This document shows, one piece after another, positions 1 through 18,446 of a DNA stretch of 21,502 nt. Position 1 is the stretch's first letter. Every line of letters begins with the position of its first letter. The DNA lies in the IMG/VR virus record IMGVR_UViG_3300047200_000232, positions 1-21,502 of that record; one strand, 5' to 3'. A program made the position numbers and the translations under genes. The stretch is from a virus. The notes under the pieces were generated by a model that worked only from the letters and a program-made list of their open reading frames with translations, made no database searches and had not been told where the DNA came from.

Positions 1-1863
1 GGAACTTTCGAAGAGTACTACTCTAACATCGTAAAGGGTGACCCTATCGTGACCAAATTGGCTCACCAGAGAATGTATGACATTTTAACCCAAGAAGGTG
101 TAGAGATTGTTAAAACAGATGAAGATTCTAGGCTTAGAAGAATTTACGGCAATGACATCATAAAAAAATACAACTTCTTCAAAAACGAGTTCTTTGGTAT
201 TGATAAAATCTTAATGAAATTAGTAAGATTCTTCCATTCAGCCTCTATGGGTGGCGAAGAGTCAAGACAGGTACTATATCTTGTAGGTGGAGTTGGCTCT
301 GGGAAATCTTCTTTGATGGAAGCTTTAAAAAGAGCTTTACAAAACTCTCTTCCATTCTACCATCTTGAAGGATGCCCAATGCACGAAGAACCCTTACATT
401 TGATTCCAATTGATTTAAGACCCCTATTTGAAAAAGAACTAGGTGTAAAAATAGAAGGTGAATTATGTCCAACTTGTCGCTACAGACTTAAAACTGAGTT
501 AAACGGAGATTATGAAAAATTCCCTGTAGTAATGTCCAACTTTAGTATTGCAAACAGAGTAGGCGTGGGAGTAGTTCCACCTGTAGACCCTAATAATCAG
601 GATACTTCGGTATTGACAGGTTCAGTAGATATATCCAAGATTGACCTATATGCAGAAGATGACCCTAGAATTCTTTCACTGAATGGCGCATTTAATGTAG
701 GCAATCGTGGTATTGTGGAATTTATTGAGGTCTTTAAGAATGAGACTGAATATTTACATACTATGATAACAGCTACTCAGGAAAAGGCTATCCCCTCGGC
801 AGGGAAAGGTTCTATGCTTTATTTTGATGGTGTTATACTGGCACATTCAAATGAGGCAGAATGGAACAAGTTTAAAGCAGACCATACAAACGAAGCTATT
901 TTAGATAGAATTGTAAAAATTGAGATTCCTTACTGCATGGAATTAGACGAAGAAGTTAAGATTTATAAGAAGATTCTAGGAAAAAGTAGGTTTGATGCCC
1001 ACATAGCTCCTCATACAATTGAAGTTGCTTCTATGCTTGCAGTTATGTCAAGACTTGCTCCTTCTACTAAAGTAAGCTGTTTAACAAAGATGAAGATATA
1101 CAACGGGGAAGAAGTAGTTGAAACAGGAGGTTCTAAAAAAGTTGACGTACTGGAACTCAAAGAGGAAACACCAAGAGAGGGAATGACAGGTCTTTCAACT
1201 AGATTCATAATGAAAGCAATTGATACAACAATTTCGGAGTCAGAACATAAATGTATTAACCCAATTGCAATAATGGAAACTCTTGTGAAGTCTATAAAAG
1301 AACTCACTATAAAAGAGGATGAAAAAGAAAAACTGCTTAAGTTCATTCAGTCAGATGTTAGGAAAGAGTTCAATAAAATGTTGGAGAAAGAAATAACAAA
1401 AGCATTTATATTTGGGTACAAAGAACAAGCGGTAAGCCTATTCCATAACTACCTTGACCATGCAGAAGCATATGTTAACAAAACTAAGATTAAGGATGTT
1501 AACACGGGCGAAGAGCTTGAGTCTGATGAAAAGTTCCTGCGTTCAATTGAGGAGCAGATTGGCATAACGGATACGGCTGCGAAGGGCTTTAGAGCAGATG
1601 TAATCTCTTATATGTTCTCTCTATCTAGGAAAGGACAGACAATAACATACGACTGCTATGAACCTCTTAAGGAAGCAATCGAAGCAAAGTTAACTAACTC
1701 AGTCAAAGAGTTGAGCAGGATAATTACTTCTTCAAGAGTGCGTGATAAGGAACAGGGCGAAAAATTTGACGCTATGTTAGAAGAAATGTTCAGGAATGGT
1801 TACTGCCCTGAATGTGCCAAGGCACTGCTTGCATACGCAAGTAATAATCTTTGGAAGGACTAG
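1..1863 (+). CDS. prkA: PrkA/YeaG-family AAA+ protein (5' partial)
   Basis: Frame 1 is open from the first base of the window, so the true start lies upstream; the GTG at 49 is internal. The first in-window codons read GTFEEYYSNIVKGDP, which matches the segment about 20 residues into Bacillus PrkA (GTFADYLEIIKENP), so only a short N-terminus is missing. A Walker A motif, GGVGSGKS, is encoded at 286-309, followed by the family signatures GCPMHEEPLHLIP, LTGSVDISKI, ILAHSNEAEW, HIAPHT and SIEEQIGI. The C-terminus (NGYCPECAKALLAYASNNLWKD split over the last codons) ends where bacterial PrkA ends, so the gene looks complete at the 3' side. PrkA proteins were described as serine kinases and B. subtilis PrkA also as an ATP-dependent protease affecting sporulation; which activity applies here cannot be read from sequence. 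It heads a PrkA-DUF444-SpoVR cassette. The family call is secure; a phage-specific role is inference. Confidence 0.95.
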   Translation, partial: GTFEEYYSNIVKGDPIVTKLAHQRMYDILTQEGVEIVKTDEDSRLRRIYGNDIIKKYNFFKNEFFGIDKILMKLVRFFHSASMGGEESRQVLYLVGGVGSGKSSLMEALKRALQNSLPFYHLEGCPMHEEPLHLIPIDLRPLFEKELGVKIEGELCPTCRYRLKTELNGDYEKFPVVMSNFSIANRVGVGVVPPVDPNNQDTSVLTGSVDISKIDLYAEDDPRILSLNGAFNVGNRGIVEFIEVFKNETEYLHTMITATQEKAIPSAGKGSMLYFDGVILAHSNEAEWNKFKADHTNEAILDRIVKIEIPYCMELDEEVKIYKKILGKSRFDAHIAPHTIEVASMLAVMSRLAPSTKVSCLTKMKIYNGEEVVETGGSKKVDVLELKEETPREGMTGLSTRFIMKAIDTTISESEHKCINPIAIMETLVKSIKELTIKEDEKEKLLKFIQSDVRKEFNKMLEKEITKAFIFGYKEQAVSLFHNYLDHAEAYVNKTKIKDVNTGEELESDEKFLRSIEEQIGITDTAAKGFRADVISYMFSLSRKGQTITYDCYEPLKEAIEAKLTNSVKELSRIITSSRVRDKEQGEKFDAMLEEMFRNGYCPECAKALLAYASNNLWKD

Positions 1864-1978
1864 AATAACACTAATAAAATATTGGGAAGCTGTTATTAGT
1901 AGGGAACAGCAAGTAGAATTGTGTGTTGGGTTAGATTCTACAAAATTATTAAAAGTTTATGATATAAGAAGGAAAAAC
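1864..1978 (+). other. Structured intergenic region between prkA and the HNH gene
   Basis: This 115-base gap holds three perfect inverted repeats. ACTAATAA (1870-1877) pairs with TTATTAGT (1893-1900). GCTGTT (1889-1894) pairs with AACAGC (1905-1910); the two stems share 1893-1894 and pair within interleaved positions, so they are mutually exclusive. GTAGAAT (1913-1919) pairs with ATTCTAC (1935-1941) around a 15-base loop. No U-run follows any stem, so an intrinsic terminator is not supported. It may be an RNA element acquired with the homing endonuclease gene, or a processing or attenuation structure. The base pairing is directly visible; function is unknown. Confidence 0.45.
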
Positions 1979-2656
1979 ATGGGTAAAAAAATAACTGATT
2001 TAACAGGACAAAAATTTAATAAGTTAAAAGTTATCTCATATGTAGGAGAAAAAGGAAAGTATATGTGGTTGTGTGAATGCGATTGCGGTAACATAACCAA
2101 AGTCTCAAGAAATCATTTAAAAAATGGACACACTAAATCATGTGGGGATTGCCCCTTCATCACTTATTTTAAACATGAAGATGGTTATATGATAGGAGTG
2201 TCCACCAACGGATTAAAATTTTACTTTGACGAAAAATTCTTTAATAAAATAAAATATTTTAATTGGAGAATTAGTGTAAGGAACTATGTATACGCAATTA
2301 TAAATAAAAAATACGTTCAATTTCATAGATTCATTTTAAACATACAAGACGTTAAGATATTCGTAGACCATAAAGACCACAATACCTTAGATAATAGAAT
2401 TAGCAATCTAAGAATTTGCAACAGACAAAAAAACCGTATGAACTCAATCGCAGTTGTTAATCATACAAGTAAATACAAAGGGGTAAGTTGGAAAAAGGAT
2501 AATTCGAAATGGATTTCTCAAATAGGTTATAACAAAAAGAAGATTTACATTGGGTTATTTGATTCCGAATTAGAAGCCGCAGAAGCTTATAATGAAAAAG
2601 CCAAGGAACTATTTGGAGAATTTGCATGGTTGAATAAGATAGAAGAGGTGGTTTAA
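1979..2656 (+). CDS. HNH homing endonuclease with AP2 DNA-binding domain
   Basis: The ATG at 1979 is chosen because AGAAGGA lies just upstream and the protein then begins MGKKITDLTGQKFNKLKV, a typical start for phage HNH enzymes; the frame stays open upstream into the prkA tail but without family sequence. The 225-residue protein has an N-terminal zinc-ribbon-like segment (CECDCG at 32-37 with KSCG at 53-56). An HNH core follows at about 115-152 (FHRFIL, VDHKDHN, LDNRISNLR), with H116, D130-H131 and N143 as likely active-site residues, and an AP2 domain at about 163-218 (KYKGVSW, KIYIGLFDSELEAAEAYN, FGEFAWLN). Such genes cut a DNA target and spread by copying into it. It is free-standing: prkA and the DUF444 gene both look intact around it. 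The last codons (IEEVV) overlap the DUF444 ribosome binding site. Confidence 0.92.
   Translation: MGKKITDLTGQKFNKLKVISYVGEKGKYMWLCECDCGNITKVSRNHLKNGHTKSCGDCPFITYFKHEDGYMIGVSTNGLKFYFDEKFFNKIKYFNWRISVRNYVYAIINKKYVQFHRFILNIQDVKIFVDHKDHNTLDNRISNLRICNRQKNRMNSIAVVNHTSKYKGVSWKKDNSKWISQIGYNKKKIYIGLFDSELEAAEAYNEKAKELFGEFAWLNKIEEVV
2645..2651 (+). promoter_or_regulatory. Ribosome binding site of the DUF444 gene, inside the HNH gene
   Basis: GAGGTGG lies 6 bases before the ATG at 2658 and is read as the EVV codons at the end of the HNH gene. Translation of the DUF444 gene is therefore probably coupled to, or was rebuilt by, the inserted endonuclease gene. Confidence 0.7.
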
Positions 2657-2657
2657 G

Positions 2658-3860
2658 ATGGCTATATTCAAAAGTTATGATAGTAAAAAGGGGAAAAGGG
2701 CGGCAGAAGATGTTCAAAGACATAAAGAGTTAATAGAGAAATCTATTAAAGAAAATATTAAAGATATAATAGCTGATGAAAGTATTATAGGACAAAACAA
2801 GGATAAAAAAGTAAGAATCCCTGTTAAATCTTTAAAGGAATATAGATTTATTCATGGAAGTAACAAAGGAAACGTAACCTCTGGAACGGGAGAGGAAAAG
2901 CGAGGAGACCACGGTTCTCAGGAAAACAAAAAAGGAGAACAAGGTAAGGCAGGAGAAGAAGAAGGCGACGAAGTTTATGAAACTGAAATCACAATGGAAG
3001 AGTTGATTCAATATCTTTTAGAAGATTTGAAACTTCCAGATTTAGATAAAAAGAAAATTGCAGATATAGAGGAGCTTTGCAACAGCAGAAGATTGGGGTA
3101 CAAAAGAAAAGGTATTGCTCCTCAACTAGCAAAGAAAAAATCGGTAATAGAAAAAATAAAAAGGGTTCAGGGAGTACGGAAAACATATATAGAGGAAGGT
3201 AAAGAAGACGAAATTCCCGAAAGAATTCCGTTCATGGAACAAGACCTTAGATATCACAGAGTTAAAGAAGATACGGAAAAAAGATATAATGCAGTCATAA
3301 TTTGCATTATGGACGTTTCTGGCTCTATGGATGCTAGCAAAAAATATTTAGCGAGGAGTTTTTATTTCCTTTTGTACCAATTTTTAAAATTAAACTATTC
3401 AAACATACAAATTGTATTTGTGGCACATACAACAATAGCAAAAGAGGTTAATGAAACTGATTTCTTTTCTCGAATGGAGTCGGGCGGAACTTTTATTAGT
3501 AGTGGATATGAAAAAGCTATCGAGATAATCAAAGAGAGATATAATCCTGAGATTTGGAATACATATGCTTTCCACTGCACAGATTCAGATAACTGGGCAA
3601 ATGACAATGCAAAAGCAAAAGAGGCAACAAAAACTTTACTAGGACTATGTAATTTATTTGGATACGTAGAAATAATTCCTACCGAAGAGAACTATTGGAA
3701 TATTGGAGGTAATAACACTGACTCCTTTAAAACAGAACTTAAGAAAAGCTTTGGAAATGAAGACAACTTTGTTTCAGTTTCAATTACAAAAAAAGAAGAC
3801 GTAGTCCCAGCAGTTAAAAATGTTTTAGAAAAAAACAGTGATAAATCTAAAGAGGATTGA
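2658..3860 (+). CDS. yhbH: YhbH/YeaH-family DUF444 protein with VWA-like domain
   Basis: The 400-residue length is close to the bacterial family (about 390-430). The N-terminal half carries DUF444 features: RHKELIEKSIKENIKDIIADESII, then IPVKSLKEYRF. A charged, low-complexity linker follows at about 68-106 (many G, E and K). The C-terminal half is VWA-like: a MIDAS-type DVSGSM motif at 219-224, then GGTFISSGYEKAIEIIKERY and FHCTDSDNW, which match bacterial YhbH closely. The family is of unknown biochemistry but is nearly always encoded with PrkA and SpoVR and is thought to act with them in stationary-phase stress and sporulation. VWA domains usually bind partner proteins through a metal ion, and partnership with the AAA+ PrkA is a reasonable inference. 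It starts one base after the HNH stop, and the spoVR gene follows after 11 bases. Confidence 0.94.
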   Translation: MAIFKSYDSKKGKRAAEDVQRHKELIEKSIKENIKDIIADESIIGQNKDKKVRIPVKSLKEYRFIHGSNKGNVTSGTGEEKRGDHGSQENKKGEQGKAGEEEGDEVYETEITMEELIQYLLEDLKLPDLDKKKIADIEELCNSRRLGYKRKGIAPQLAKKKSVIEKIKRVQGVRKTYIEEGKEDEIPERIPFMEQDLRYHRVKEDTEKRYNAVIICIMDVSGSMDASKKYLARSFYFLLYQFLKLNYSNIQIVFVAHTTIAKEVNETDFFSRMESGGTFISSGYEKAIEIIKERYNPEIWNTYAFHCTDSDNWANDNAKAKEATKTLLGLCNLFGYVEIIPTEENYWNIGGNNTDSFKTELKKSFGNEDNFVSVSITKKEDVVPAVKNVLEKNSDKSKED

Positions 3861-3871
3861 GGTTTTATATT

Positions 3872-5311
3872 ATGTCAATGACTGAATTTTCAATGAAGGA
3901 CTTGATAACTTGGAACGAAAAAATCGAGGAAATAGCCCAAAAGTTTGGGCTAAACTACTATCAACAAGAGTTTGAGGTTTGCGACCAAGATGACATGTTG
4001 GCATATATGAGTTATCATGGGATGCCCTCGCATTATCCTCATTGGTCATTCGGGAAAGCATTTGACAAAACTAAAACGATGTATAAATACAATATGACTG
4101 GACTGCCATATGAAATGGTTATAAATAGCAATCCATGTCTAGCTTACTTAATGGTTGATAACACACTATTATTGCAAATACTGACAATTGCTCATGTGTA
4201 CGGTCACAATGATTTTTTCAAAAACAATAGAATGTTTGTAGAAGGAACTGATGCAAGTTATACATTGGAAAACTTTAAGAGTCATGCAAACAGAATAAGA
4301 AATTACATTGATACTTATGGATACAAAAAAGTTGAAAAAATATTAGACTCTGCTCACGCCATTCAATATCAAGTTAACAGAACAATAGGAGAAAAGACGT
4401 TGACAACGAGAGAGCTGAAGCAAAATATAAGAGATAGAGTCAATAAAAAAGACCCGTACTCATTAATAAAACCCAAAACAGATTTTGATTTTAACAGAGT
4501 TTTACTTGAGTGCAGTTTAGAACAGACAATAGTAGAACCACAAGAAGATTTAATGCAGTTCATGATAAACTTTTCAAAGCTAGAGGACTGGGAAAAAGAT
4601 ATACTTAATATTGTTAGAGAAGAAACACTTTATTTTATTCCTCAAATCGAAACAAAGATAATGAATGAGGGTTGGGCGAGTTACTGGCACTATAAAATTT
4701 TAAGTGAGCTTCTTGGTAGTTCTTCTGAATATCAAGGGCTGTATATTGAGTTTCTAAAAAGACACAATCAAGTTATAAGACCTCATGCAAAGAGTTTGAA
4801 CCCTTATTACATAGGATTTAAGATTTTTGAATGGATAGACAATAACCTAGGTAGAGAAAAAATGTTCGAAGTTCGTGAAATGGAAAGAGATTCGTCCTTC
4901 ATAAGAAAATATTTAAATTTTGAACTGTGCAAAGAAATGAATTTAATCTCATATGACCACGACCGCTATACTCGTGAAGATTACAGTAAGGATACTTTTA
5001 CAGTCACCGAACTTTCAGATGACGACGGATGGAGAAAGGTCAGAAATATGTTAGCCTCTTCTGTGGGATGTCAAAAAATGCCTGTAATTACTGTAGATAA
5101 TATTAAAAGTAAAAGCGGGGGCGTAGGTTCTTTAATTTTAAGTCATAGGAATGAAGATGGTGAATTAGAATTAAATTATTTGGTTGAGACTTTGAAGCAT
5201 TTAATTGATTTATGGGGAGGCACTATTGAAATAAATGCAACAATAAACAATGTGAATAGAATAATAACAATGGACAGAACGAAAGATTGGAGTATTTATC
5301 CTAAATTATAA
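3872..5311 (+). CDS. spoVR: SpoVR-family protein
   Basis: A TTG at 3857 is in frame, but the ATG at 3872 is preferred because GAGG (3859-3862) sits 9 bases before it. The resulting 479-residue protein is close to B. subtilis SpoVR (about 470). Family signatures are clear: YHGMPSHYPHWSFGKAFDK near residue 50, YEMVINSNPCLAYLM, AHVYGHNDFFKNN (bacterial form AHVLAHCDFFKNN) and MNEGWASYWHYKIL in the middle, followed by the long helical C-terminal part. SpoVR affects spore cortex formation in Bacillus; its enterobacterial relative YcgB is a stationary-phase and nitrogen-starvation gene co-regulated with yeaG-yeaH. The molecular activity of the family is unknown. It closes the PrkA-DUF444-SpoVR cassette, and a new promoter follows directly. 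The first His-rich motifs are retained, so there is no sign of decay. Confidence 0.95.
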   Translation: MSMTEFSMKDLITWNEKIEEIAQKFGLNYYQQEFEVCDQDDMLAYMSYHGMPSHYPHWSFGKAFDKTKTMYKYNMTGLPYEMVINSNPCLAYLMVDNTLLLQILTIAHVYGHNDFFKNNRMFVEGTDASYTLENFKSHANRIRNYIDTYGYKKVEKILDSAHAIQYQVNRTIGEKTLTTRELKQNIRDRVNKKDPYSLIKPKTDFDFNRVLLECSLEQTIVEPQEDLMQFMINFSKLEDWEKDILNIVREETLYFIPQIETKIMNEGWASYWHYKILSELLGSSSEYQGLYIEFLKRHNQVIRPHAKSLNPYYIGFKIFEWIDNNLGREKMFEVREMERDSSFIRKYLNFELCKEMNLISYDHDRYTREDYSKDTFTVTELSDDDGWRKVRNMLASSVGCQKMPVITVDNIKSKSGGVGSLILSHRNEDGELELNYLVETLKHLIDLWGGTIEINATINNVNRIITMDRTKDWSIYPKL

Positions 5312-6676: not shown

Positions 6677-7978
6677 ATGAAAGAACAGTGCATATTTTGT
6701 AAAAAGTATATTTCTCAGAAAAAAAACGGAGACATGGCAGGACACTATCTATTTGGACAATACTTTACTTGTGAAAATTGCTTTTTTACATATTGTAGAA
6801 CAAACAATATGGAGGTAGGGAAAAATGGGTTTACTGAGGAAATAATAGTAGATTTGATGACTACTTCATACGAAGAAGATAACAGTCTTGATTGCGACGA
6901 CGGTGAATGTGAATGTGAAAATTGTGGTAACGTTCAAGATAATCAAGAATTAGTACCCACTAAAGAAGCTAGTCATAGTAAAACACTCTTCACGCCAAGG
7001 GAAATAACTTCACTTTTTGACCGCTTTGTTATAGGGCAGGAGAATGCAAAAAAAGCTGTAGCTGTAGCTGTTTACAATCATTACTTGAGAATTAATAATA
7101 GGTCTGTTACAGACATTCCAAAGAACAACATTTTTATGATTGGTTCTACTGGGACGGGGAAGACTTATTTATGGGAAATAGTTGCAAAGATGCTAGATGT
7201 TCCTCTTTTAATAACAAATGCGGGAAATTTTACAGCAAGTGGTTATAAAGGCACTAACGCAGAAGAAGCACTAGGGGACTTAATAACACTAGCCAATTTT
7301 GACATTGAAAAAGCACAAAATGCTATTATAGTCTTAGACGAAGTAGATAAATTAACTAAAAATAGCGATTCTAATAGCGACATGAACAGTACGAGAGTTC
7401 AGCAGTGCCTTCTTAAAATAGCAGAGGGTACTATAGTCTCAGTTGATTTAGACAGAAAGAGATATACGTTAGACACAAAAAATATACTTTTTGTAGCCAA
7501 TGGTAGTTTCAACGGGCTGAAAGAAGTTATTAATAAAAGAGTAAATAGTTCAAATATTGGACTGGGCTTTGGTAAAGTTAGTAGTAAAAACTTAGAAATT
7601 TCGAGTGATATTTTACATAGGGCAAAATCAGATGACCTAATATCGTTTGGATTCATCCCTGAATTTGTTGGAAGATTTCCTATAATAACGGCTTTAAATG
7701 ACCTTACTCAAGAAGATTTAATAAGAATTCTGTCAGAGCCTAATAACTGTTTAGTACAACAGTATATACAATTATTTGAACACTCAGGTATTTCAATAAG
7801 GTTTGACCAACAGGTTTTAGAAATCATTGCTAAAAAAGCAGTCCAAGAGAAGATTGGGGCAAGAGGACTGAAAACTTACATGAATAAAGCCTTAGAGGAA
7901 TTACTTTACGAGTTACCATCTATGGGTTTTACAGAGTATATAATCACAAAAGATGTTATTAAGTCTTTAGAAGATTAA
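6677..7978 (+). CDS. clpX: ClpX-like AAA+ unfoldase with zinc-binding domain
   Basis: The ATG at 6677 is preferred to that at 6659 because GGGG (6666-6669) precedes it at good spacing and the protein then starts MKEQCIFCKK. At 433 residues it matches full-length ClpX. The N-terminal zinc domain has C5-x2-C8 and CENC about 30 residues on. An unusual acidic, Cys-rich linker (DCDDGECECENCG) follows. The AAA+ core has Walker A GSTGTGKT (156-163), Walker B IIVLDEVD (217-224), FIPEFVGRF and a sensor-2 GARG (394-397). The pore-1 loop reads GYKG (189-192) instead of the near-invariant GYVG, and the RKH loop reads DRKRY. The sequence NIGLGFG (293-299) occupies the place of the ClpP-docking IGF loop. 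It probably unfolds selected proteins and may feed host ClpP. No clpP is in the window. Confidence 0.93.
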   Translation: MKEQCIFCKKYISQKKNGDMAGHYLFGQYFTCENCFFTYCRTNNMEVGKNGFTEEIIVDLMTTSYEEDNSLDCDDGECECENCGNVQDNQELVPTKEASHSKTLFTPREITSLFDRFVIGQENAKKAVAVAVYNHYLRINNRSVTDIPKNNIFMIGSTGTGKTYLWEIVAKMLDVPLLITNAGNFTASGYKGTNAEEALGDLITLANFDIEKAQNAIIVLDEVDKLTKNSDSNSDMNSTRVQQCLLKIAEGTIVSVDLDRKRYTLDTKNILFVANGSFNGLKEVINKRVNSSNIGLGFGKVSSKNLEISSDILHRAKSDDLISFGFIPEFVGRFPIITALNDLTQEDLIRILSEPNNCLVQQYIQLFEHSGISIRFDQQVLEIIAKKAVQEKIGARGLKTYMNKALEELLYELPSMGFTEYIITKDVIKSLED

Positions 7979-9269: not shown

Positions 9270-9318
9270 AAAGATGTAGAGTGGTTCATAAAAAAATAAA
9301 AACAAAAGGGGTATGAAT

Positions 9319-9564
9319 ATGGGAGACCAAGCAGTAAAAAACAAGATAATAGAGTTAGTGGCAAACTTAGCAATGATAGAGGAAGACGATTTTGAATTAA
9401 CAGACACTTTCTCAGAAATAGGATTGGACAGTATAGACATCTGTACTCTCGTCGCTGATATTGAGATAGAGTACGACATATTTCTTGACCAAGACATTGA
9501 CTTGGATAACATGGGAGACATAACCGTAGAAAAACTGATAGAAATTACTTTACTTAGAATGTAA
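9319..9564 (+). CDS. acpP: Acyl carrier protein
   Basis: The ATG at 9319 is preferred over 9313 because AAAAGGGG (9304-9311) is 7 bases before it but only 1 base before the other. The 81-residue acidic protein has the ACP pattern: a helix I region (KNKIIELVANLAMI), then FSEIGLDSIDICTLVADIEI, matching the canonical [20 protein letters not shown]. The phosphopantetheine-accepting serine is S38. ACPs carry acyl chains for fatty acid, lipid or secondary metabolite synthesis after activation by a 4'-phosphopantetheinyl transferase. No synthase, transferase or condensing enzyme is in the window, so it presumably works with host enzymes. It is the first gene behind a perfect promoter, implying high expression. 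Resemblance to D-alanyl or other specialised carrier proteins cannot be excluded. Confidence 0.88.
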   Translation: MGDQAVKNKIIELVANLAMIEEDDFELTDTFSEIGLDSIDICTLVADIEIEYDIFLDQDIDLDNMGDITVEKLIEITLLRM

Positions 9565-16660: not shown

Positions 16661-17839
16661 ATGCTAGACAAAGAGAAAATTAGGGAATCATTAACAGAAG
16701 AGGATATAACAAAAATTTTATTAGACTTAGGTGCTGGCGACCCCCAGCGTGATAGAGAAGGCAACATGGTATATAGGACTATTTGCCATGGAGGGAATAA
16801 GCATAAACTTTATTATTATGATGATAGTAAAATGTTTCATTGCTACAGTGGCTGTCAAACCAGTTTTGATATTTACGCATTAGTCTTAAAAGTTAAAAAA
16901 TGGGAAAATAATAAGTTCCCTGAAGTAATAAAATATGTAGCAAACGTGTCAGGTAAATGGCTAACGAAGGATTATAACAAAGAAACTGAAACTAGATGTA
17001 GATTAGATTTATGGAAGAACTTCGGAGAAGAAAATACAAAACAGGATTTAAAATTAACCAATTACTCAAAAAATGTTTTGAACGTATTTATAAACAAACC
17101 TCATGAATTATGGATAAACGAGGGAATAAGCGAAGAAACAATGAAAACATTTGATATAAGTTATTATTCAAAAGAAGACAGAATAATAATACCTCATTTT
17201 GATATAGATGGAAATTTAGTAGGAATAAGAGGAAGAGCACTTTTAGAAGAAGACGTACAAGCAGGAAAGAAATATATGCCTGTAAGGGTTAATAAAATTG
17301 AATACTCTCATTCAACAAGATTAAACTGGTATGGGTTAAACATAACTAAAGAAGCCATAAAAAGAAGAAAGACAGTAAAAATATTTGAATCAGAAAAATC
17401 TGTGATGAAGTTGTATGAATGGTATGGGAATGATTGTGATGCAGTTGCTTCTGGAGGTAGTTCAATTAGTCCTACACAACTTAAGATTTTAGAAGATTTG
17501 GGAGTAGAAAAAATTTACCTATGTTACGACAAAGAATACACAGATGATGATAACGAGCAAAAACAGAGATATGGAATGAAACTGATAAAAGCCGTTCACT
17601 CTGTTTGTCAATTTAAAAAAGTTTATTTAGTTTTAGATAATGATGAACTTTTACAATGCAAAGACTCTCCGTGCGACAGAGGGAAAGAAGTTTTTGAGTA
17701 TCTTGTTAGAGAGTCAGAAAAAATTGAAAACAACTGCAAAGTGACCCCTTTGAAAATTTACTCAGAGGAAGAAGCAAAGGAATTAACAAAAGGAATTTTT
17801 AAAAATCGTAGAAATAAACAGGGGAAAAGAAATGACTAA
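16661..17839 (+). CDS. dnaG: DNA primase (CHC2 zinc finger and TOPRIM)
   Basis: The 392-residue protein has a CHC2-type zinc finger: C42 and H48 or H43, then C61-x2-C65 (TICHGGNKHKLYYY, MFHCYSGCQTSFDIYAL). The central part includes DRIIIPHFDIDGNLVGIRGRAL, typical of the primase catalytic domain. A TOPRIM core follows with IFESEKSVMKLY (E243) and IYLCYDKEYTDDD (D290, E292 in place of the common DxD). The C-terminus is shorter than in cellular DnaG and lacks an obvious helicase-binding domain. It makes RNA primers for replication, working with the helicase encoded immediately upstream. The 3' end overlaps the LAGLIDADG gene by 8 bases. Confidence 0.9.
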   Translation: MLDKEKIRESLTEEDITKILLDLGAGDPQRDREGNMVYRTICHGGNKHKLYYYDDSKMFHCYSGCQTSFDIYALVLKVKKWENNKFPEVIKYVANVSGKWLTKDYNKETETRCRLDLWKNFGEENTKQDLKLTNYSKNVLNVFINKPHELWINEGISEETMKTFDISYYSKEDRIIIPHFDIDGNLVGIRGRALLEEDVQAGKKYMPVRVNKIEYSHSTRLNWYGLNITKEAIKRRKTVKIFESEKSVMKLYEWYGNDCDAVASGGSSISPTQLKILEDLGVEKIYLCYDKEYTDDDNEQKQRYGMKLIKAVHSVCQFKKVYLVLDNDELLQCKDSPCDRGKEVFEYLVRESEKIENNCKVTPLKIYSEEEAKELTKGIFKNRRNKQGKRND

Positions 17840-18446
17840 ATATGATTTTAATGTAAAAATATTTGATGAAATAGATACTCCTGAGAAAGCTTATTGGACA
17901 GGATTTATTTGGTGCGATGCCTATGTTTGCAAAAGACAAAGAAAAACCAGTATAACTTATGAATTCAAACTTGAATTATCACAACAAGATGTTAATCACT
18001 TAGAAAAGTTAAAAACGTGTATGAACTCGAACCATGAAATCAAATATTATAAATTCATAGGATTCGGGAAAGAACATACAAATTGCAGATTATATATATC
18101 TAACAATTATTTTGCCAAGAATCTCTATGAAAACATTGGATTGATTCCTCATAGGTTTGAAACAGAAAAATTAATAAAACAAGTACCAGAAAAATTTTAC
18201 AGAGATTTAATCAGAGGTATCTTTGATGCAGAGGGAGGATTTTCATACTACTATCACACAGATAAGAATCGATTATCTCCTTGTTTAAAAATAAGCTTGG
18301 GCATAACTACGTATGAAACATTACTAGAATTTATAAAAAACCATTTTATGGAAAAACAGTTAATAGTTACTAATTTAAAATTAAGTAGGAGACATGACGA
18401 CAGAGATGATGTTTGCAAACAACTAAAAATTTCTGGAACTCAATAA
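17832..18446 (+). CDS. LAGLIDADG homing endonuclease, probably truncated by a stop
   Basis: The 204-residue reading frame has two LAGLIDADG-like helices: YWTGFIWCDAYV (21-32) and DLIRGIFDAEGGFSYY (125-140), with D29 and D132 as likely metal ligands. The ribosome binding site is CAGGGG, inside the primase end. The frame ends at TAA 18444 directly after KISGTQ, yet the same frame continues for 33 further sense codons that look like the normal C-terminus of this family (see next entry). The gene therefore probably carries a nonsense mutation. It lies between primase and RecJ-like genes, a typical site for such elements. Both neighbours look complete. The shortened protein may still fold, because both active-site helices are present. 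Confidence 0.88.
   Translation: MTKYDFNVKIFDEIDTPEKAYWTGFIWCDAYVCKRQRKTSITYEFKLELSQQDVNHLEKLKTCMNSNHEIKYYKFIGFGKEHTNCRLYISNNYFAKNLYENIGLIPHRFETEKLIKQVPEKFYRDLIRGIFDAEGGFSYYYHTDKNRLSPCLKISLGITTYETLLEFIKNHFMEKQLIVTNLKLSRRHDDRDDVCKQLKISGTQ

Follow-up and report, generated by a model that had tools for sequence, protein, structure and literature searches.

The stretch analysed (hereafter the window) is a fragmentary virus record of 21.5 kb from IMG/VR, and encodes a divergent ClpX-family unfoldase, P0001, which by inference works like ClpX. Its AAA+ core is intact, and all three substrate-contacting loops are altered, as judged from the sequence together with a structural model. The account that we consider somewhat better than even is that P0001 is a phage ClpX-family unfoldase that acts on substrates other than those bearing an ssrA tag, and passes them to a phage or host ClpP. 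The features referred to throughout are as follows.

6677..7978, + strand: phage-encoded ClpX-like AAA+ unfoldase P0001 (phmmer, NCBIfam, Foldseek).
6689..6796, + strand: zinc-finger-like CxxC...CxxC...C segment (C5, C8, C32, C35, C40), from cysteine spacing.
6863..6991, + strand: acidic Cys-rich linker, residues 63-105 (Cys 73, 78, 80, 83), from composition and pLDDT.
7142..7165, + strand: Walker A, GSTGTGKT, residues 156-163, intact.
7241..7252, + strand: pore-1 loop GYKG, residues 189-192 (E. coli Val154 replaced by Lys), from alignment.
7325..7351, + strand: Walker B, IIVLDEVDK, residues 217-225, intact.
7367..7405, + strand: pore-2 loop DSNSDMNSTRVQQ, 3 residues shorter, T199-R200 missing, V202 replaced by Met, SGEG replaced by NSTR.
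7433..7480, + strand: truncated RKH loop, an AF2 beta-hairpin (253-258/261-266) that lacks 7 residues relative to E. coli.
7556..7570, + strand: docking tripeptide region IGLGF (IGL 294-296 overlapping LGF 296-298), from alignments.
7658..7684, + strand: arginine-finger region PEFVGRFPI (R333), intact.
7856..7873, + strand: sensor-2 GARGLK (R396), intact.

The first-pass annotation had placed a ClpX gene at 6677-7978 (+), and this is indeed a real open reading frame of 433 amino acids, beginning with ATG 6677, six bases 5' of which lies GGGGA, a plausible start signal. An alternative in-frame start at ATG 6659 lacks a signal of this type. In phmmer searches, the top PDB matches are ClpX chains (E down to 1.5e-81, residues 83-426), and the Pfam domains AAA_2 and ClpB_D2-small are detected. 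Foldseek searches with the AF2 model of P0001 return ClpX-ClpP structures first (E 5e-33), with a TM-score of 0.72-0.90 against solved ClpX; ClpX homology and fold span residues 104-428. Model confidence (pLDDT) exceeds 90 across most of the AAA+ core (residues 101-420), and is low in the docking loop. P0001 falls just under both NCBIfam ClpX cut-offs (TIGR00382, 353.3 vs 359 bits; NF003745, 328.2 vs 370.75 bits), both of which the phage relative L189 exceeds, and scores far below the cut-off of the HslU (ClpY) model TIGR00390 (187.8 vs 362.45 bits). The hallmarks of ClpX that are missing from P0001 are a score above the NCBIfam cut-offs, a match to PF06689, the GYVG pore motif and the RKH loop.

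The motor itself is preserved. Walker A and B, the arginine finger and sensor 2, all previously described as intact, are so in both sequence and alignment, giving a complete HCLR-type AAA+ core; the equivalents of E. coli Lys125, Glu185, Arg307 and Arg370 are kept, as in essentially all sampled sequences.

The loops that line the pore tell a different story. The GYKG reading of pore-1 was confirmed (codons GGT TAT AAA GGC), and since a change from Val to Lys takes at least two base changes, a single base-call error cannot account for it. Among ~185 sampled ClpX sequences this is the sole GYKG loop: GYVG is found in 80/80 bacterial sequences, and the 104 others (mostly viral; five are of host-DNA or E. 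coli origin) carry GYVG (93), GYAG (6), GYTG (3) or GFQG (2), a rarity that, on these alignments, appears to be more than chance. A basic residue following the tyrosine is compatible with pulling, as illustrated by the pore loop of ClpB, KYRG, where a basic residue stands beside the pore tyrosine (PMC10870172). The change in pore-2, absent from the first-pass annotation, is larger than that in pore-1: where the reference has NPSITRDVSGEG, P0001 aligns as SNS---DMNSTR.

The RKH loop had been reported as reading RKR. These letters are present at residues 260-262, but the loop is no variant of RKH: its measured span is 10 residues, compared with 17 in bacteria (77 of 79 distinct sequences), E. 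coli His230 is without a counterpart, and the AF2 model folds it into a bare hairpin of two strands and a tight turn. As the RKR letters sit inside this hairpin, they should not be taken for a conservative substitution.

In E. coli ClpX, the ssrA tag is contacted by Y153, V154, T199, V202, R228 and H230 (PMC7652416), positions at which P0001 has, by alignment, Y, K, a gap, M, R and a gap, so that only Tyr153 and perhaps Arg228 are retained. Replacement of RKH by AAA abolishes degradation of ssrA substrates in E. coli (PMC7112951). Human ClpX also leaves such substrates undegraded, and has other residues in place of T199 and H230 (PMC7652416). With the tyrosine and possibly the arginine kept and the other contacts changed, the best inference is that P0001 has lost ssrA-type recognition, and its substrates probably differ from those of host ClpX.

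Could these changes be mere drift in a decaying, non-functional ClpX of host origin? P0001 does lie on a long lone branch (~1.5 substitutions per site), scores below the curated ClpX cut-offs, and is altered in the most conserved loops. We nevertheless consider decay very unlikely, as the open frame is full-length, the ATPase motifs are all intact, as is the arginine finger, and the changes are concentrated in the substrate loops and the N-terminus, leaving a confidently modelled core.

The N-terminus is divergent as well. The Pfam zinc-domain model zf-C4_ClpX (PF06689) has no match to P0001 at E up to 10, while the controls, E. coli ClpX and the phage relative L189, are readily recognized (8.6e-22 and 7.1e-12, respectively). 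The cysteine pairs 5/8 and 32/35 are arranged like those of the ClpX zinc site but with a longer spacing, and may represent a diverged zinc site. The Cys-rich acidic linker that had been claimed to follow is present, with 12 acidic and 2 basic residues over positions 63-105. It is probably disordered, judging from pLDDT values of 34-58 over the N-terminal 100 residues and below 50 over residues 40-98; that the Cys-rich parts bind adaptors or substrates is a guess.

In the docking sequence of P0001, NIGLGFGK, either IGL or LGF could be the tripeptide, and both fit [LIV]-G-[FL]. IGL had been placed at the IGF docking position; the letters are there, and one MAFFT alignment supports this placement, which is doubtful, as LGF takes that position in 4/5 alignments (the one from phmmer and three of the four made with MAFFT). 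The AF2 model has a pLDDT of 62 in this loop. In E. coli, I268L or F270L severely weakens ClpP binding (PMC7112951), and one of these two changes applies to P0001 in either register; docking to an arbitrary host ClpP should therefore not be assumed. In alignment column counts, Leu occurs at position 268 in 24/80 bacterial ClpX sequences, LGF being a common bacterial tripeptide.

No ClpP was found within the 21.5 kb window. We scanned 48 ClpX-bearing records and 31 PrkA-bearing phage records in which no ClpX was found for canonical ClpP, defined as a strong full-length match of at least 189 bits. It is present in 25/48 ClpX-bearing records vs 0/31 controls, and among records of at least 100 kb in 20/35 vs 0/19, counts for which Fisher p-values overstate the evidence because the sequences are related. 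Matches in the ClpX-less set are all weak and shorter, of the kind that would be expected for head-maturation proteases. Since ClpX phages often carry canonical ClpP, a phage-encoded partner for P0001 is at least as likely as host ClpP.

In the earlier reading, a lone phage ClpX uses IGL for docking to host ClpP, thereby redirecting degradation in the host. The absence of a phage ClpP from the window, the prevalence of LGF in bacteria, and several ClpX-bearing records of at least 200 kb in which no canonical ClpP was found (G020, G021, G026, G031, G038, G039, W06) are in its favor. We hold it to be unlikely, as large ClpX phages usually bring their own canonical ClpP (19/26 of those at least 200 kb), the tripeptide that aligns with IGF is probably not IGL, and the E. 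coli substitutions cited above are each so damaging to ClpP binding.

Among the phage ClpPs, the Ser-His-Asp residues are kept in 19/20, and in the clade of ClpX sequences with IGI/IGL docking loops, 4/4 ClpPs read (loci L272-L275, which go with ClpX L189, L203, L207 and L246) have the pocket residues Y82, Y90, T92 and Y112, a set unseen in the other 16 phage ClpPs. As these ClpX sequences form one clade (support 1.0), this is probably a single event; the pattern is as expected if ClpX and ClpP change together, and may reflect compensation between a small residue on the ClpX loop and a bulky one in the ClpP pocket.

A further possibility is that P0001 needs no ClpP, serving instead as a chaperone or remodelling motor in virion assembly or in the disassembly of replication complexes, a role that has been proposed for jumbo-phage ClpX (PMC7824862). 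This precedent, a docking loop that differs in sequence from that of E. coli, and the presence of a replication block (Sak4, DnaB, primase, RecJ) 5 kb downstream of the P0001 gene are consistent with such a role, but P0001 keeps a hydrophobic [IL]G[LF] at the docking position in a loop close in length to that of E. coli. A protease-free motor would not be expected to keep the docking tripeptide, and its retention makes the chaperone role quite improbable.

The neighborhood is otherwise phage-like, the window RecJ being closest to RecJ of SPbeta-group Bacillus phages, and megablast found no relative among 50,697 phage records. A LAGLIDADG homing endonuclease (17832-18446) lies between primase and RecJ, and an acyl-carrier-protein-like ORF (PP-binding, 9313-9564) adjoins NDK and transglycosylase genes. 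Positions 49-5311 hold a PrkA, DUF444 (YhbH/YeaH), SpoVR cluster, interrupted by an HNH/AP2 homing-type endonuclease. PrkA relatives occur in at least 180 viral stretches (the best 55-60% identical), the three genes are clustered (order DUF444-SpoVR-PrkA) in 76 of the 80 viral contigs with the best matches, and Thermus phages also carry the trio. A general link between ClpX and this cluster was rejected, as ClpX was found in 0/31 PrkA-phage records, where two faint AAA+ matches (E 3.7e-6, 2.6e-4) are not ClpX; two ClpX-bearing records (L228 and L246) contain both.

Under the explanation that we favor, P0001 would be an ATP-active, phage-encoded ClpX-family unfoldase, probably assembled as a hexameric ring in which the pore tyrosine still pulls chains. 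It would no longer select ssrA-type Ala-Ala tails as E. coli ClpX does, and would instead pick another set of substrates by means of its own pore loops and divergent N-terminal domain, handing them to a ClpP that is either the host's or the product of a gene elsewhere in this phage's genome. The phage would thereby govern the degradation of selected proteins, leaving ssrA clearance to host ClpX. Several observations weigh against this explanation: the window contains no ClpP, the docking loop differs from the IGF of E. coli whichever register is right, and the controls for the ClpP counts are phylogenetically non-independent, with some records being fragments. Moreover, as no relative exceeds ~44% identity over most of the AAA+ domain, selection on the lineage is not directly visible. 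A more specific version can be advanced only tentatively: a ClpX-derived unfoldase devoid of ssrA recognition would pick private substrates through the basic residue of pore-1 and its remodelled, Cys-rich N-terminal domain, forming with a phage ClpP an orthogonal protease that operates beside host ClpXP.

The pore loops of bacterial ClpX are nearly frozen, and natural variants with an intact motor would help to separate residues that choose substrates from those that pull them. If phage ClpX pairs with phage ClpP, such pairs would constitute orthogonal degradation machines that can be compared with those of the host, and might be usable as independent tools for protein degradation.

While phage ClpX is already known, P0001 is a divergent orphan branch of it. 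Searches of IMG/VR, GTDB genomes, phages and plasmids yielded no close relative (none above the ~44% noted above); the best short match (L271, 57% over 65 residues) lies at a contig end, and a tree places P0001 in no clade. ClpX proteins of phage G and Atu_ph07 were named previously (PMC7824862), and phage ClpX also appears elsewhere in the literature (PMC11242549); among the open-licence texts searched, no paper describes the loop combination of P0001.

With E. coli ClpX (6wrf, 6po1), P0001 shares the AAA+ large and small domains, Walker A/B, arginine finger and sensor 2, along with the pore tyrosine, a hydrophobic docking tripeptide and ~41% core identity, from which it departs in GYKG, a rewritten pore-2 that is 3 residues shorter, an RKH loop 7 residues shorter, and a zinc domain unseen by Pfam. 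Jumbo-phage ClpX proteins (Bacillus phage G gp258, Agrobacterium phage Atu_ph07 AUZ94814.1, and the Pseudomonas phi30-2/PA5oct group) are 37-39% identical to P0001 but keep GYVG and DVSGEG, and all except phi30-2 keep an RK-type RKH loop; in phage G, clpP adjoins clpX, an arrangement not seen in the P0001 window. Eight IMG/VR sequences (L189, L203, L207, L216, L225, L232, L233, L246) share the short RKH loop (10-12 residues) and have an IGI/IGL docking loop, but retain GYVG and DVSGEG and do not group with P0001 in the tree; L246 resembles the window in having PrkA-DUF444-SpoVR nearby. A separate ClpX type, forming its own clade, was seen on a 722 kb Aneurinibacillus plasmid (L118) and in Bacillus sp. 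M6-12 (L134), with a shortened RKH loop, KRKVLL; in L118, a sigma factor lies just upstream, with type II/Flp secretion-like and ParA-like genes nearby. Two sequences from viral contigs of 316 and 110 kb (L269 and L270), in which the pore tyrosine is replaced by Phe and no above-threshold ClpP match was detected, resemble P0001 in their altered pore-1 (GFQG), rewritten pore-2, missing RKH motif and divergent N-terminus, with no zf-C4_ClpX match in L269, the one scanned; they are only ~28-29% identical to P0001, and retain the IGF docking tripeptide.
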